From Acidovorax soli (GTDB lineage: Bacteria; Pseudomonadota; Gammaproteobacteria; Burkholderiales; Burkholderiaceae_C), in assembly GCF_900107605.1 (NCBI RefSeq), contig NZ_FNQJ01000012.1, forward strand, positions 1-64,000: a DNA stretch of 64,000 nt. The letters are read 5' to 3'. Positions 9,338 through 17,904 of this stretch are shown piece after piece (positions within the stretch are counted from its first letter, which is position 1; each line of letters begins with the position of its first letter). The notes below the pieces were generated by a model. That model was not told the origin of the DNA. It saw nothing but the letters and a program-made list of their open reading frames with translations, and did not search any database. Both the position numbers and the translations under genes were made by a program.

Positions 9338-9374
9338 ATTTTTTGTAGCTTATGGCGCTTTGTGGACAAGGGCC
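9338..9374. repeat. Decayed copy of the AGCGCTTAT repeat
   Basis: GATTTTTTGTAGCTTATGGC followed by GCTTTGTGGACAAGGGCC keeps the TAGCT...GGCGCTT skeleton of the family with loss of the second arm. It lies just downstream of the cupin gene. Confidence 0.3.
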
Positions 9375-9542
9375 ACAAGCACCAATGAGCCAACGCCCCT
9401 CATTGTGTGAGGGCCGCACGCACGGTGCGGGGGCGCGGGTAAACACCGCTGCGCGGCGCGGCGGGGTTGCGCACGCTGTATCCAGGTGTCCGGTCCGATA
9501 ACATGCACCCGTTGGTTTTCGTCCTTTCGCAGGAGGTTGCGC

Positions 9543-12183: not shown

Positions 12184-12933
12184 TCAGGCAGCCGCCAGCA
12201 AGACCGGCAACACGCTGGCGGCCGTGCCACGCAGCAGCACATGGGCCACATCGTCGAGGGCGCTGGCGGCCGGGTTGACGATAACCACGCGAGCACCCGC
12301 CTGGCGCGCCACTTGCGCCAACCCCGCCGCCGGGTACACGGCCCCCGCCGTGCCCACCACCAGCATCAGGTCGCAGGCACGGGCGGCCTGCTGAGCCGCC
12401 TCCAGCGTGGCGTACGGCAGGGCCTCGCCAAACCACACCACACCCGGGCGCAGCAGGTTGCCGCAGCGGCTGCAATACGGCGGGTGGCCGGTGGCAGCGT
12501 GGTCGATATGGCAGCAGTTGCGCGGGGTGTCGAGCCAGCGGTTGGCAAAAATGTCGCCATGCAGGCACAGCACGCCGGTGCTGCCCGCGCGCTGGTGCAG
12601 GCCGTCCACGTTCTGGGTGATGAGCGTCAGCCGGCCGGGGTAGTGGCGCTGAAAATCCGCCAGCGCCACATGCCCTGCATGGGGCTGCACACCCGCCAGC
12701 AGGTCGCGCCGGTGCTGGTACCAGTCCCACACGCGCCCCGGGTGGGCACGAAAGCCGGCCTCGGTCGCCATGTCTTCGGCGCGAAACTGCGCCCAGTAGC
12801 CGGTGGGTGTATCGCGAAAGGTGGGTACACCCGATTCGGCACTGATGCCGGCACCGGTCAGCACGGCAATGTGGCCTGCGCCCTGCAGCCATTGCCGCAC
12901 CTCGCCAGCACCTGCAGGAAAAACGATGTTCAT
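12184..12933 (-). CDS. cobB: NAD-dependent protein deacylase, sirtuin family (CobB-like)
   Basis: This 249-aa protein has the class III sirtuin motifs: TGAGISAESGVPTFRD (NAD-binding loop), TQNVDGLHQRAG, the catalytic His in LHGDIF, and VVGTAGAVYPAAG. It removes acyl groups from lysines using NAD. The zinc site looks incomplete. One CxxC (YCSRC) is present, but the first pair is replaced by a NCC. The A-Y/R residues typical of desuccinylating class III enzymes were not confirmed. The gene is monocistronic. Confidence 0.85.
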   Translation of the reverse strand: MNIVFPAGAGEVRQWLQGAGHIAVLTGAGISAESGVPTFRDTPTGYWAQFRAEDMATEAGFRAHPGRVWDWYQHRRDLLAGVQPHAGHVALADFQRHYPGRLTLITQNVDGLHQRAGSTGVLCLHGDIFANRWLDTPRNCCHIDHAATGHPPYCSRCGNLLRPGVVWFGEALPYATLEAAQQAARACDLMLVVGTAGAVYPAAGLAQVARQAGARVVIVNPAASALDDVAHVLLRGTAASVLPVLLAAA

Positions 12934-13102: not shown

Positions 13103-13798
13103 TCAGCCCGCCAGCCCCTGCTCCACCATCGCCACGGCGCGCTGGGCCATGGCTTCGGTCTGCGCGGCGCTCAGCGCGCGCAGCGGGCCGTCGAGCGCCA
13201 GCATGGCCAGGCCGTGCACTGCCGACCAGGCCAGAAACTCGGCGCCCGGGCGTTGTGCCGCGCCCAGTGCGCCGGCAGCCACCATGTCGTCGAGGGTGCC
13301 GCAGAGGATCTCGAACGGATCGCGCCCGCTGTCGCCGCGGAAGTCGTCGCGGCTGCCGTTGGCCACGTCGAAGGGCTGGGCTACGAATGCCGTGCGAAAC
13401 AGCCCCGGCTCGGCCAGCGCAAAGCGCACGTAGCCCGTACCCACGGCCTTGAAGGCGGCACGCGCCCGAGCCACCGGTGCGCTCAGGTGGCGCGTGGCGC
13501 GGTCGATCTCGGCCTCCATGGCGCGTGCCATCAAGCCCAGTGCGGCGCCGCGCACGGCGTCAAGCAGCGCCGCGTGGCCGGCGAAGTGGCGGTAGGCGGC
13601 GTTGGGCACCACACCGGCGCGGCGTGTGGCCTCGCGCAATACCAGCGCCGCTGGCCCGCCCTCGCGCACCAGCGCAATGCCTGCGTCAAGCAGCGCGCGA
13701 CGCAGGTCGCCATGGCGGTAGGTGGGCCGCCGCGCGGTCTGGCCCGCGGGTGCGGCAGGAGTGGGGGGAGTGAGAGGAACCGGAAGTGAAGCGCTCAA
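13103..13798 (-). CDS. TetR-family transcriptional regulator
   Basis: This protein of about 231 aa has an N-terminal TetR HTH (RRALLDAGIALVREGGPAAL ... RRAGVVPNAAYRHFAGHAALLDAV) and a C-terminal TetR_C/WHG-type ligand domain. No ATG is in frame near the domain. TTG 13798 is used here, and the start is uncertain. It is transcribed away from the VOC/SRPBCC operon. The intervening 114 bp carries two operator-like palindromes, so it most likely represses itself and that operon until a small ligand binds. Confidence 0.8.
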   Translation of the reverse strand: MSASLPVPLTPPTPAAPAGQTARRPTYRHGDLRRALLDAGIALVREGGPAALVLREATRRAGVVPNAAYRHFAGHAALLDAVRGAALGLMARAMEAEIDRATRHLSAPVARARAAFKAVGTGYVRFALAEPGLFRTAFVAQPFDVANGSRDDFRGDSGRDPFEILCGTLDDMVAAGALGAAQRPGAEFLAWSAVHGLAMLALDGPLRALSAAQTEAMAQRAVAMVEQGLAG

Positions 13799-13829
13799 GA
13801 TGGCATCCCTGTTCTGCGAAGGGTTTAAT

Positions 13830-13875
13830 GTGGACTCTGTACATTTTACGGCAGAATGAAGTGGACGTCGTACAC
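13830..13875. promoter_or_regulatory. Paired TetR operator candidates in divergent promoter
   Basis: Site B (13861-13875) reads GTGGACGTCGTACAC, a 15-nt palindrome with 6 of 7 pairs matched. Site A (13830-13844) reads GTGGACTCTGTACAT and is a weaker version in the same orientation. The sites start 31 bp apart, about three helical turns. Both lie between tetR and the first VOC gene, fitting cooperative binding of two repressor dimers. Inferred from sequence only. Confidence 0.5.
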
Positions 13876-13912
13876 ATATTGCTCCATTGGCCGTTTCACA
13901 AAGGAGACTCGC

Positions 13913-14416
13913 ATGGATTCCAACCGCAGGATGACTCCACCCAAGAACACCATCTGCCTCTGGTACGACAACGATGCTGAAGCAGCAGCGCGGTTCTACG
14001 CCAGCACCTTTGCCGATTCGGCCGTCGGTGCCATCCACCGCGCGCCGGGTGACTATCCCGCAGGCAAGGCGGGCGACGTGCTGGTGGTCGAATTCACCGT
14101 GCTGGGCTTGCCCTGCATGGGCCTCAACGGTGGACCGGGCGTCCAGCACAGCGAGGCGTTCTCGTTCCAGGTGTCCACCGCCGACCAGGCCGAAACCGAC
14201 CGCTACTGGAACGCCATCGTTGGCCACGGGGGCCAGGAAGTGGAATGCGGCTGGTGCCGCGACAAGTGGGGCATCTCCTGGCAGATTACACCGGTGGTGC
14301 TGGCCCAGGCCTGGACCCACCCCGACCGCGCGGCCGCCAAGCGCGCCTTCGACGCCATGATGACCATGAAGAAGATCGACGTCGCCGCTATCGAGGCCGC
14401 GGTGGCGGGCCGCTGA
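13913..14416 (+). CDS. VOC-family protein (PhnB / 3-demethylubiquinone methyltransferase-like fold)
   Basis: This 167-aa protein starts 5 nt after AAGGAGA. It has the PhnB-type VOC fold: ICLWYDNDAEAAARFYASTF at the N-terminus, then HSEAFSFQVSTADQAETDRYW and CGWCRDKWGISWQITP at the C-terminus. The annotation 3-demethylubiquinone 3-methyltransferase is often given to this family but is not supported by biochemistry. VOC folds bind metals and small molecules. It is the first gene of a six-gene operon under a divergent TetR. Confidence 0.8.
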   Translation: MDSNRRMTPPKNTICLWYDNDAEAAARFYASTFADSAVGAIHRAPGDYPAGKAGDVLVVEFTVLGLPCMGLNGGPGVQHSEAFSFQVSTADQAETDRYWNAIVGHGGQEVECGWCRDKWGISWQITPVVLAQAWTHPDRAAAKRAFDAMMTMKKIDVAAIEAAVAGR

Positions 14417-14453
14417 CGCGCCGTACCTCAACCCTGTGCAACCCGGAGGCAGC

Positions 14454-14891
14454 ATGCAATTCACCCCTTACCTCCATTTCGACGGCAACTGCCGCGAGGC
14501 TTTTGCCTTCTACAAGGATCTGTTCAAGGGCACCGTGGTGCACCAGAGCAGCTTCGGCGAGATGCCGCCGGACCCGCAGAACCCGCCGATCCCGCCCGAG
14601 GCGAAAGACCGCCTGATGCACGTGCACCTGCAGGTCGGCGCGCAGGCGCTGATGGGCTCCGACGCCATGCCCGGCGCCAGCGACGCGTGCGCTGGCGGCT
14701 ATGCCAGACCGCAAGGCCTGTGGGTGTCGATCCAGGTGGCCGATGCAGTCGAGGGTCGGCGCGTGTTCGATGCGCTGGCGCAGGACGGCCAGGTGACCAT
14801 GCCGTTCGACAAGACCTTCTGGTCGGCCGGCTTCGGCATGGTGACCGACCGCTTCGGCACGCCGTGGATGGTCAACGTGAACGCCACTTGA
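14454..14891 (+). CDS. VOC-family protein (PhnB-like glyoxalase)
   Basis: This 145-aa protein follows GGAGG at 14443-14447; a GTG six codons earlier is less likely. It shows the PhnB/glyoxalase pattern: FTPYLHFDGNCREAFAFYKDLF, the DRLMHVHLQVGAQALMGSD strand, and FWSAGFGMVTDRFGTPWMVN at the end. It is distinct in sequence from the first VOC protein, so the operon holds three different VOC types. Its substrate is unknown. Confidence 0.85.
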   Translation: MQFTPYLHFDGNCREAFAFYKDLFKGTVVHQSSFGEMPPDPQNPPIPPEAKDRLMHVHLQVGAQALMGSDAMPGASDACAGGYARPQGLWVSIQVADAVEGRRVFDALAQDGQVTMPFDKTFWSAGFGMVTDRFGTPWMVNVNAT

Positions 14892-14907
14892 AACGGGAGA
14901 ACCGATC

Positions 14908-15354
14908 ATGCCCACTGGAACCATCCGCCTGCACCGCGTGCTGCGCACCACGCCCGACAAGGTCTACCGCGCCTTCACCTACGGCGCGGCCCTGGCCAAA
15001 TGGCTGCCGCCCTACGGCTTCGTCTGCCACGTCCATCAGTTCGATGGCCAAGTGGGTGGCAGCTTCAGGATGTCGTTCGAGAACTTCTCCAGCGGCCACC
15101 GCCATTCGTTCGGTGGCGAATACCTGAAGCTGGTCCCCGGCGAGCTGGTGGAGTACACCGACCGCTTCGACGACCCCAACCTGCCCGGCCAGATGCACGT
15201 GACCGTGAAGCTGCGCGCCGTGTCGTGCGGCACCGAGCTGGACATCGAGCAGGCCGGAATCCCCGAGGCGATCCCGGTCGAGATGTGCTACCTGGGCTGG
15301 CAGGAATCGCTGCTGCAGCTGGCGGCGCTGGTCGAGCCGGACATTCCGGGTTGA
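14908..15354 (+). CDS. SRPBCC (AHSA1-like) domain protein
   Basis: This 148-aa protein begins 16 bp after the previous stop, with a GGGAGA site. It has the AHSA1/START-like helix-grip fold: IRLHRVLRTTPDKVYRAFT, WLPPYGF, GGSFRMSFENFSSGHRHSF, and the C-terminal helix MCYLGWQESLLQLAALVEP. These domains bind hydrophobic ligands in a deep pocket. The family is often annotated as Hsp90 ATPase activator by homology only. It is cotranscribed with VOC proteins. Confidence 0.85.
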   Translation: MPTGTIRLHRVLRTTPDKVYRAFTYGAALAKWLPPYGFVCHVHQFDGQVGGSFRMSFENFSSGHRHSFGGEYLKLVPGELVEYTDRFDDPNLPGQMHVTVKLRAVSCGTELDIEQAGIPEAIPVEMCYLGWQESLLQLAALVEPDIPG

Positions 15355-15423
15355 TGGCTGCCGCGCACCAGACCGAGGCTGCATGCCCGACGCCAATCAG
15401 GTGCCGAAACCGAGGAAAAAACG

Positions 15424-16086
15424 ATGACAAGTGTTCGCGTGGAAAGCTTCACCCTCTCGCTCGACGGCTACGGCGCCGGCCCGGACCAGAGCCTTGATGA
15501 TCCGCTCGGCATCGGTGGAACGGAACTGCACCAGTGGCTGCTGCCGACCCGCACGCTCCAGCGCACACTGTTCGGCCAGGACGGTGGCACCACGGGGGTG
15601 GACGATGATTTCGCCGCGCGCGGCTTTCAGAACGTCGGCGCCTGGATTCTGGGGCGCAACATGTTCGCCCCTTTCCGCGGCGACTGGCAGGACAAGACCT
15701 GGAAAGGCTGGTGGGGCGAGGACCCGCCCTACCACGTTCCGGTCTTCATCCTGACCCACCATGCACGGCCGCCGATCGAGATGGAAGGCGGCACGACTTT
15801 CCACTTCGTCACCGGCGGCATCCATGAGGCGCTCGACCGTGCGCGCGATGCCGCTGCCGGCAAGGACGTGCGGATCGGCGGCGGGGCCAACACCATCCGG
15901 CAGTACCTGCGTGAAGGCCTCATCGACGAACTGCACATCGCCATCGCGCCGGTCCTGCTCGGCCGGGGAGAGCCGCTGTTCCAGGGGCTCGACCTGCGGG
16001 CGCTGGGCTACGAATGCGTGCGGTTCGTGGCGTCGGACAAGGCCACGCATGCCGTCCTGCGGCGCCACGCTTATACAGGCGCCTGA
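15424..16086 (+). CDS. Dihydrofolate reductase / RibD C-terminal family protein
   Basis: This 220-aa protein matches the RibD_C/DHFR-like family: VESFTLSLDGYGAG at the N-terminus, GAWILGRNMFAPFRGDW, the nucleotide-binding VRIGGGANTIRQYLREGLID and HIAIAPVLLGRGEPLF. It probably binds NADPH and reduces an unknown small molecule. True FolA is shorter (about 160 aa). It sits in the middle of the TetR-controlled operon and is the only member with a clear redox fold. Confidence 0.8.
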   Translation: MTSVRVESFTLSLDGYGAGPDQSLDDPLGIGGTELHQWLLPTRTLQRTLFGQDGGTTGVDDDFAARGFQNVGAWILGRNMFAPFRGDWQDKTWKGWWGEDPPYHVPVFILTHHARPPIEMEGGTTFHFVTGGIHEALDRARDAAAGKDVRIGGGANTIRQYLREGLIDELHIAIAPVLLGRGEPLFQGLDLRALGYECVRFVASDKATHAVLRRHAYTGA

Positions 16087-16111
16087 GCAGGCGCCGTCGA
16101 AAGGCATGACC

Positions 16112-16522
16112 ATGAAGATCACCATCGAAACCACTGTCCATGCGCCCATCGACCGCGTATGGGCCACCTGGAATGACCCGCGCGCCATCGAGCAGTGGAA
16201 CGCGGCCTCGCCCGACTGGCACACGCCGCGCGCCAGCGTCGATCTGCGCGAAGGTGGCAAGTTCTGCGCGCGCATGCAGGCGCGGGACGGCAGCGTCGGC
16301 TTCGACTTCGAGGGCACCTACACCCTGGTCGCACCGCAGCGCCTGATCGAATACACCCTGGGCGACGGGCGCGCGGTGCGGGTCGAGTTCATTCCAGTGG
16401 CCAATGGCATCACGGTGCGCGAGTCCTTCGACGCCGAGGACAGCCACGGCGCCGAACAGCAGCGCCAGGGCTGGCAGGCCATTCTGGACAACTTTGCGCG
16501 GCACGTCGAGCACCGCGCCTGA
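16112..16522 (+). CDS. SRPBCC-domain protein (polyketide cyclase/AHSA1-like)
   Basis: This 136-aa protein starts at ATG 16112, 8 nt after GAAAGG; ATG 16106 adds two residues. It has the helix-grip signature: TTVHAPIDRVWATWNDPRAI, WNAASPDWHTPRA, LREGGKFCARM, and the C-terminal helix HGAEQQRQGWQAILDNFARH. It is about 25% shorter in its loops than the other SRPBCC protein of the operon. The predicted role is ligand binding or catalysis on a hydrophobic compound. Confidence 0.85.
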   Translation: MKITIETTVHAPIDRVWATWNDPRAIEQWNAASPDWHTPRASVDLREGGKFCARMQARDGSVGFDFEGTYTLVAPQRLIEYTLGDGRAVRVEFIPVANGITVRESFDAEDSHGAEQQRQGWQAILDNFARHVEHRA

Positions 16523-16551
16523 TTCACCCCCAGCAACGCAAGGAGCAACCC

Positions 16552-16938
16552 ATGAAACCCAATCCCGTCGTCTGGTTCGAGATCCACGTGCAGGACATGG
16601 CCCGCGCTCGCAAGTTCTACGAAGCGGTGTTCCAGTGCCAGCTGGAGACGCTGAAATCACCCGCGGGCGAAGCCAGCGGCATGCAGATGCTGTCCTTCCC
16701 CGGCGACATGACCACCATGGGCGCCAGCGGCACGCTGGTCAAGATGGAAGGAGTGCCCTCTGGTGGTGGCGGCACGCTGGTCTACTTTGCCTGCGAGGAT
16801 TGCGCTGTCGAACAAGGCCGGGCCGAGAAAGCCGGTGGCAAGGTGTTCAAGCCCAAATTTTCGATCGGTGAGTATGGCCACTGCGCCCTGGTGACCGACA
16901 CCGAGGGCAACATGATCGGCCTGCATTCGATGCAATGA
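16552..16938 (+). CDS. VOC-family protein (glyoxalase/bleomycin-resistance fold)
   Basis: This 128-aa protein follows AAGGAG by 6 nt and closes the six-gene operon. It shows the classic VOC pattern: VVWFEIHVQDMARARKFYEAVF, then VYFACEDCAVEQGRAEKAGG, and GHCALVTDTEGNMIGLHS with the usual metal-site Glu position near the end. It resembles proteins often annotated as lactoylglutathione lyase-like. The next gene, rlmB, is convergent. Confidence 0.85.
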   Translation: MKPNPVVWFEIHVQDMARARKFYEAVFQCQLETLKSPAGEASGMQMLSFPGDMTTMGASGTLVKMEGVPSGGGGTLVYFACEDCAVEQGRAEKAGGKVFKPKFSIGEYGHCALVTDTEGNMIGLHSMQ

Positions 16939-16957: not shown

Positions 16958-17707
16958 CTAGCCGCCCCGCTGCCGCAGCGCTTCGTACAGGCACACGCCG
17001 CTGGCCACCGACACGTTGAGGCTCTCCACCGCGCCCTTCATGGGGATGCTGACCAGTTCGTCGCAGGTCTTGCGCGTGAGCTGGCGCATGCCGTCGCCCT
17101 CGGCGCCCAGCACCAGGGCCACGGGGCCTTTCAGATCGACCTGGTACACGGTTTTGGGCGCGTCGTCGCTGGTGCCGATGCACCAGATGTTGCGCTCCTT
17201 GAGCTCATTGAGGGTGCGCGAGAGATTGGTGACCATGAAGTACGGCATGGTCTCGGCCGCACCGCTGGCCACCTTGGCCACGGTGGCATTGATGCCCACG
17301 GCGTGGTCCTTGGGGGCAATGACGGCATGGGCACCCGCACCGTCCGCCACGCGCAGGCAGGCGCCCAGGTTGTGCGGGTCGGTCACGCCGTCGAGCACCA
17401 GCAGCAGGGGCTGCTCGATGCCGGCGGCTTCGAGGTTTTCCAGCAGTTCGTCGAGCGAGGCGACCTGGGCCACGGGCTCCACCCGCGCGGCCACGCCCTG
17501 GTGGCCGTGGCTGCCGGCCAGCTTGGCAATGCGCACGCTGTCGGCCTCGATCAGGCGCGCACCGGCCTCGCGGGCGCGGTCGAGAAACTGTCGCATGCGG
17601 GCGTCGCGCCGCGTGGCTTCGTAGTAAATCTCGATGATGGATTGCGGCGCGGTCTTCAGACGCACGCCCACGGCGTGAAAGCCGAAGAGAACTTTGGGGC
17701 TGGACAT
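16958..17707 (-). CDS. rlmB: 23S rRNA (guanosine-2'-O)-methyltransferase RlmB
   Basis: This 249-aa SPOUT methyltransferase methylates G2251 (E. coli numbering) in the peptidyl-transferase centre. It shows an N-terminal substrate-binding domain ([14 protein letters not shown] ...) and the SpoU knot motifs: [33 protein letters not shown] and [25 protein letters not shown]. Its start at 17707 was chosen because [13 protein letters not shown] matches the family beginning. It is convergent with the VOC operon and divergent from sstT. Confidence 0.93.
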
Positions 17708-17904
17708 GGGGGGATTATCCGGGCATTGCCAGGTCCACAGGTTGACGCGCACCCGGTCACCGGCCAAACCACGGCATCTTGCGCTCGAAGGTCTTGCGCC
17801 AAGGGTTTGCCCTCGTGCGCCTAAAATCGCGCCTTTCCATTGCTCGATCCGCAGGCGGCGTTGCTCTCTTTTGCGCCGATTCCTGTGTGCCGGTGTGGCT
17901 TTGC

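Follow-up and report, generated by a model that had tools for sequence, protein, structure and literature searches.

The locus described here lies in Acidovorax soli (Burkholderiaceae_C), on a 64,000-nucleotide stretch of contig NZ_FNQJ01000012.1 that we refer to throughout as the window; the source assembly, GCF_900107605.1, is a 4.13 Mb draft in 90 contigs. At positions 13103-16938 a tetR-type regulator gene diverges from six small genes, designated A to F, which encode three VOC proteins, two AHSA1/SRPBCC proteins and a RibD_C/DHFR-like reductase. This inventory had been proposed from the letters alone, and Pfam confirmed both its coordinates and its folds. The regulator gene occupies 13103-13798 on the minus strand, with a probable TTG start at 13798, and matches TetR_N (29.4 bits, cut-off 24) and TetR_C_33 (57.3 bits, cut-off 26.8). 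On the plus strand, A (13913-14416) is a VOC protein of the 3-dmu-9_3-mt family, B (14454-14891) a YjdN/PhnB-like VOC protein by Pfam and NCBIfam, C (14908-15354) an AHSA1/SRPBCC protein, D (15424-16086) the RibD_C/DHFR-like reductase, E (16106-16522, with a possible start at 16112) the second AHSA1/SRPBCC protein and F (16552-16938) a VOC protein of the Ble-like_N/Glyoxalase type, all assigned by Pfam.

The family assignments differ in depth. D scores 67.5 bits against Pfam RibD_C (cut-off 24.1) but, at 19.3 bits, falls far short of the 150-bit cut-off of the NCBIfam RibD C-terminal model, and B reaches 106 bits against the NCBIfam YjdN model, under the cut-off of 122. With regard to glyoxalase I, the VOC enzyme that acts on methylglyoxal, the PF00903 matches of 28 and 24.7 bits are at the superfamily level only. 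The nearest solved structures of A to E (1u69, 1u6l, 1z94, 3kgy and 2lcg, respectively) include none with an experimentally named function, and F finds its nearest solved relative in one half of Rv0577 (3oxh). The cluster is more than a chance assembly, since both AHSA1 matches and both PF06983 matches in the 4.13 Mb genome fall inside the same 3-kb operon stretch, as does one of its two RibD_C matches; the other, on contig C48, is the stronger (163 bits).

When the gaps between tetR and the divergent genes of related loci were aligned, two copies of a 17-bp palindrome, TGTGGAC-N3-GTCCACA, emerged about 32 bp apart. In the window the left copy, TGTGGACTCTGTACATT, lies at 13829-13845 on the plus strand with 3 mismatches to TGTGGACNNNGTCCACA, and the right copy, AGTGGACGTCGTACACA, lies at 13860-13876 on the same strand with 2 mismatches. 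A palindromic pair spanning 13829-13876 between a regulator gene and a divergent operon is the arrangement expected of a TetR-type repressor, and we regard both copies as predicted operators with putative binding. The left site overlaps a candidate -35 element, TGGACT (13831-13836, plus strand), which is followed after 17 bp by a weak -10-like hexamer, GAATGA (13854-13859, plus strand), recognized by position only. In many loci, judged by eye, the corresponding left site holds TGGACA and, 17 bp further on, there is a hexamer resembling TATTCT, immediately behind which stands the right site. Because the left site holds the -35 and the right site follows the -10-like hexamer, a repressor bound to both sites would cover the promoter. 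A terminator scan of the region returned a single terminator-like site, where shuffled sequences gave 1.9 on average.

The pair, as opposed to the single palindrome, proved to be specific. Our sample comprised 61 TetR loci of the family, the window and 60 fetched loci; a 62nd TetR match (G345, 43% identity) was left out. A relaxed pair, with up to 3 mismatches in each site and a spacing of 30-34 bp, was present in the tetR gap of 47 of the 61 loci and absent from the 600,599 bases of these loci outside the gap, while a strict pair occurred 41 times in the gap and nowhere else in the loci (634,149 bases in total). Across 399 whole genomes drawn from the family, the strict pair was found at 45 places in 41 genomes and the reversed pattern at none. 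All 41 genomes also carry the TetR (hypergeometric probability 1e-40, with the caveat that these same loci supplied the pattern). A lone palindrome lacks such specificity, because it matched 19 sites in the genome of A. soli itself and a control pattern matched 29; three of the single sites have one mismatch, two of them inside genes and one intergenic. The intergenic one lies in the window at 9361-9377 and stands without a partner site.

Of the 45 strict pairs, 41 lie within 169 bp of a TetR match. The remaining four, all from one genus (L225:3776, L226:5211, L227:5636 and L228:4346), lie away from any tetR, and immediately behind every one of them is a VOC gene, which at one of the four places is followed by an MFS gene and a DUF1428 gene. 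Two of these VOC genes were identified by Pfam, and the remaining two share 66-71% identity with the same relative. As predicted sites, these four pairs are independent evidence that the operator belongs with genes of this kind.

TetR orthologues (E<=1e-30) were detected in 62 of the 399 genomes, and a draw across the phylum yielded seven in 398 genomes, four of them inside the family. We then asked which genes accompany the regulator, counting as palette genes the homologues of A to F or of DUF1428, a family met at the head of the operon in a close relative, within 5 kb of tetR; genes of the relatives were called with a codon-usage script and not with a standard gene finder. Palette homologues oriented alike and reading away from tetR were present in 55 of the 61 loci, two or more in 36, three or more kinds in 25 and five or more kinds in 16. 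On the far side of tetR (118,501 bases) there were no palette genes, and none was antisense. The sequence-only reading had described a dedicated set under TetR control and had named, among the outcomes that would refute it, a failure of the genes to recur together elsewhere. That outcome did not occur, and the conservation in 55 of the 61 loci, the operator pair and the off-tetR pairs before VOC genes strongly support a dedicated TetR-linked set. As far as has been seen, the linkage of this TetR with the palette is a feature of this family.

What recurs is a repertoire rather than a fixed operon. The 61 loci show 27 non-empty gene arrangements, two of which contain a letter doubled by a split match, and B is the sole palette gene in 18 loci. 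On a TetR tree of 59 of the 61 loci (L158 and L208 were left out), the fewest changes in content are 8 for DUF1428, 9 for A, 4 for B, 6 for C, 4 for D, 5 for E and 7 for F. Co-directional genes beside one regulator could also encode a dedicated catabolic pathway in which each gene performs one step on a single compound, but a stepwise pathway would not survive losses such as those that leave B alone, and we give this very little credence. A fixed six-gene pathway in particular was rejected, as order and composition vary freely across the loci.

The same variability is what would be expected if genes gathered beside tetR by drift or by insertion at a permissive site, with no common function. 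Relatives of D often stand by themselves: at least 538 were confirmed in one scan, and among the 79 D loci examined (80 less L005, an Ottowia locus described below; some flanks were shortened by contig ends), 66 have no other palette gene in their flanks and 13 have one. Searches of a plasmid collection with D, A and C gave 11 annotated neighbourhoods in which the gene stands mostly without palette genes; in Paracoccus methylovorus C adjoins A, and in Azoarcus KH32C it adjoins a VOC gene. Passengers, however, would not be confined to the operator side of tetR, nor would operator pairs away from tetR be expected to precede VOC genes, and a passenger neighbourhood seems to us a rather poor account of the locus.

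Closer relatives suggest how the state in the window may have arisen. Gene D of the window has counterparts at 92-96% identity in three further genomes of the genus (G003, G004 and G041, the window's genome included making 4 of 47) and at 94% identity on a metagenome-assembled contig of Ottowia sp. (L005); G004 and L005 hardly differ and amount to roughly one independent case, and the G041 contig is just 5.6 kb long. In locus alignments D and E form one uninterrupted RibD_C-AHSA1 reading frame in all four of these relatives. At the D/E junction the window has, relative to them, an additional base as well as some substitutions, and it reads there as two frames, with D ending and E starting separately and both domains complete.

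The front of the operon varies as well. In G003 an intact DUF1428 gene (Pfam) comes first, between tetR and A, and a truncated remnant of it stands at the operon start in G004 and L005. In the window and in G041 it has been reduced to its first codons, which are joined to the start of A; in the window this scar, recognized by Pfam and by alignment with G003, G004 and L005, occupies 13913-13927 on the plus strand. Gene C is missing from G004 and L005. Parsimony points to DUF1428-A-B-C-(D-E)-F as the probable earlier order in this lineage and to the window as a later state. The six genes proposed from the sequence alone are thus present as six frames in the window, but the number is a local state, because D and E are fused in the four relatives and DUF1428 has been lost here.

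The position of the operon on the chromosome is shared with part of the relatives. Flanking genes were sought in fetched stretches of about 2 kb upstream and 8 kb downstream, some of them shorter, in 65 oriented loci, made up of the 61, L045 and three relatives from the genus. A gene for rlmB, which in the window follows F on the minus strand (16958-17737; NCBIfam), lies downstream in 18 of the 65, and a gene for a sir2-family deacylase, which in the window precedes the locus on the minus strand (12184-12933; Pfam and NCBIfam), lies upstream in 12. Since these flanks recur, part of the set occupies one chromosomal site with differing contents. Farther upstream of sir2 the window contains half of a chromate transporter (PF02417, 11551-12144, by Pfam). 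In L163 two proteins that resemble chromate-transporter halves by eye are encoded directly behind the TetR operon.

The regulator itself is more constant than its genes. Residue conservation was assessed in 64 aligned TetR rows, of which 62 are complete (L158 and L208 are not). In the complete rows the recognition-helix residues PNAAYRHF and the WSxVHG motif of the ligand domain are invariant. No conserved cysteine was found in the alignment, and 40 of the 62 complete rows contain no cysteine at all; at the position of the only cysteine in the window TetR, the 64 rows have C in 14, G in 34 and S in 8. An AlphaFold model built from a three-sequence alignment (mean pLDDT, the per-residue confidence score, 78) has the all-helical TetR fold. 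The best PDB match in a structure search with the model was 3on2, and no informative ligand was found among the matches. Because 3on2 is uncharacterised, the ligand cannot be guessed from the model.

These residues bear on how the switch would be thrown. In the NemR/nemA-gloA system of E. coli a TetR repressor stands next to a glyoxalase-fold gene and senses through its cysteines. The window TetR likewise adjoins a glyoxalase-fold gene, and a switch of the NemR kind, in which modification of a cysteine opens the repressor and the genes remove aldehydes or quinones, would accommodate glyoxalase-fold genes under a TetR. Unlike NemR, however, the window TetR lacks a conserved cysteine, and unlike nemA none of the six window genes encodes an old-yellow-enzyme by Pfam. 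Such a switch therefore seems barely credible here, and the alignment led us to reject cysteine-based electrophile sensing. The lack of a conserved cysteine favours a bound ligand over thiol chemistry, and thiol-based sensing by this TetR is unlikely.

The proteins of the set belong to types that bind or modify small organic compounds, and the genes that join the palette in relatives also bear on what the operon may do. Similarity clusters of same-strand genes behind tetR, with Pfam run on one representative each and with the possibility that a gene is split in two, amounted to 17 gene calls for other AHSA1 proteins, 13 for GFA, 12 for DUF1579, 11 for MFS, 6 each for GST and DUF899, 3 for YCII and 1 for DUF1697. 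The sequence-only reading had found no transporter or classic enzyme in the set; that holds for the window but not for the relatives, whose runs behind tetR include MFS, GST and GFA. It is because of these additions, which are of detoxification type, that a detoxification role is favoured, and we regard defence against xenobiotics or electrophiles as the likeliest function.

The main rival is metabolite repair or housekeeping. TetR would then sense, and the operon would handle, a damaged cofactor or other metabolite from the cell itself, perhaps a side product of folates, flavins or ubiquinone, and not an outside toxin. The RibD_C and 3-dmu families are related by name to cofactor enzymes, and the site between sir2 and rlmB that part of the relatives share would suit a housekeeping locus. 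A patchy spread, with TetR in 62 of 399 family genomes and close D genes in 4 of 47 genus genomes, speaks against it, and the variable content with MFS, GST and GFA in relatives fits accessory defence better. We consider metabolite repair unlikely.

Defence against xenobiotics or electrophiles is the frame in which we place the locus, and we think it somewhat probable that a ligand-responsive, non-cysteine TetR represses a modular defence operon of this type. TetR would repress its own gene and the divergent operon through two 17-bp palindromes flanking a single promoter region, the left one supplying the -35 and the right one, to judge from its position, spanning the transcription start. A small organic ligand, rather than thiol oxidation, would release the repressor. 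The operon, presumably co-transcribed, would then produce small soluble binding or catalytic proteins of the VOC, SRPBCC and RibD_C-like reductase types, a battery to which relatives would add GST, GFA, DUF899, DUF1428 and an MFS transporter. Between them, these proteins would deal with a toxic organic compound, or with reactive products derived from it, by binding, reduction, conjugation or export; the sequence-only proposal that the set senses, binds and neutralises a toxic small molecule may be correct in this form. The constant part would be the regulator with its operator, and the effector genes would be exchangeable cassettes.

Several observations weigh against this interpretation. Fourteen of the 61 loci have no recognisable operator pair, several of them keeping one good site, and the operator pattern was built from these very loci, which makes its presence at tetR partly a matter of construction. 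The window itself offers a left site with 3 mismatches and a poor -10, and a scan of the region with the sigma-70 consensus found no promoter. The families of A to F are mostly without an assigned substrate. Six of the 61 loci (L171, L188, L190, L195, L202 and L204) have no homologue of A to F or DUF1428, although the operon of L190 begins with another VOC-like gene. Outside the family, no such homologue was found at three TetR loci (G760, G687 and G447); among these the operator pair is present in G447 only, before a gene without a Pfam-named relative. Finally, on a tree of D built without L005 the best topology requires 5 changes, but the starred branches can be reconciled with one entry, and the hypothesis that D joined the TetR operon just once was not rejected (approximately unbiased test, p 0.135).

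L188, L195 and L202 carry closely related TetR orthologues, each with one operator-like site and no adjoining palette gene.

A more specific proposal is that the conserved repressor and operator pair define an exchangeable-cassette operon, in which the sensing unit and promoter stay in place while members of a pool of VOC, SRPBCC, reductase and related genes are exchanged, drop out, or become fused and split again. The operon is anchored at one fixed chromosomal site in some of the genomes, and no recombinase has been seen so far. We put this forward tentatively, at less than even confidence. If true, it would describe a chromosomal, promoter-anchored cassette locus and would imply a common inducer, and hence a common chemical role, for the functionally uncharacterised DUF1428, DUF1579, DUF899, AHSA1-type SRPBCC and PhnB-like VOC proteins.

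These protein families occur widely, and for most of them no substrate is known. As one regulator repeatedly gathers them behind one operator, the inducer of the repressor would reveal the compounds on which they work. The operator pair is specific enough for regulon mapping in genomes of the group, and the variable content shows which families can replace or add to one another. Together, a recognisable operator pair and a shuffled gene set make both the switch and its trigger chemical directly testable.

Palette families are also found beside other regulators. In Variovorax sp. PCZ-1 a TetR of the TetR_C_13 class is encoded in one frame with a DUF1428 domain (L059:5939-6973) and precedes genes for D, SRPBCC, VOC, C, A, SRPBCC and DUF1801 proteins; the fusion points to a possible ligand-binding role for DUF1428. 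DJ-1/PfpI-AraC regulators lie near palette clusters in a member of the Cyclobacteriaceae (L078:8913-9911) and in Melioribacter (L083:5381-6361). These three clusters resemble the window in their effector families, drawn from among A, B, C, D and E, but differ from it in having regulators of other families or classes. The palette has probably been placed under several unrelated regulators.

No description of this operon was found in the titles and abstract openings that we searched, which makes for weak evidence of absence. Among the nearest parallels are sets governed by sigma factors. ECF41- and ECF42-linked sets contain YCII/DGPF and SnoaL proteins; our literature search returned no paper on them. 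Like the window, they combine small folds of similar kinds with a regulator of their own. No sigma factor was found among the seven proteins of the window operon or among the relatives' representatives submitted to Pfam.

In Mycobacterium tuberculosis the two genes most strongly induced by SigG, Rv0887c and Rv0911, encode proteins with glyoxalase/bleomycin-resistance-like domains, and SigG was proposed to act in methylglyoxal detoxification, although a sigG mutant showed no difference in methylglyoxal susceptibility (PMC3776920). A mycobacterial glyoxalase-like protein, Rv0801, gives methylglyoxal tolerance (PMC12982171). Neither case shows what the proteins of the window do. In the available text of PMC3776920 no comparable mixed operon is described for the SigG regulon. 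The likeness to SigG, as far as those accounts go, lies in a dedicated regulator with glyoxalase-fold genes. The difference, which extends to ECF41 and ECF42, lies in the regulator itself: SigG is an alternative sigma factor, whereas the operon of the window stands beside a TetR with a palindromic operator pair.

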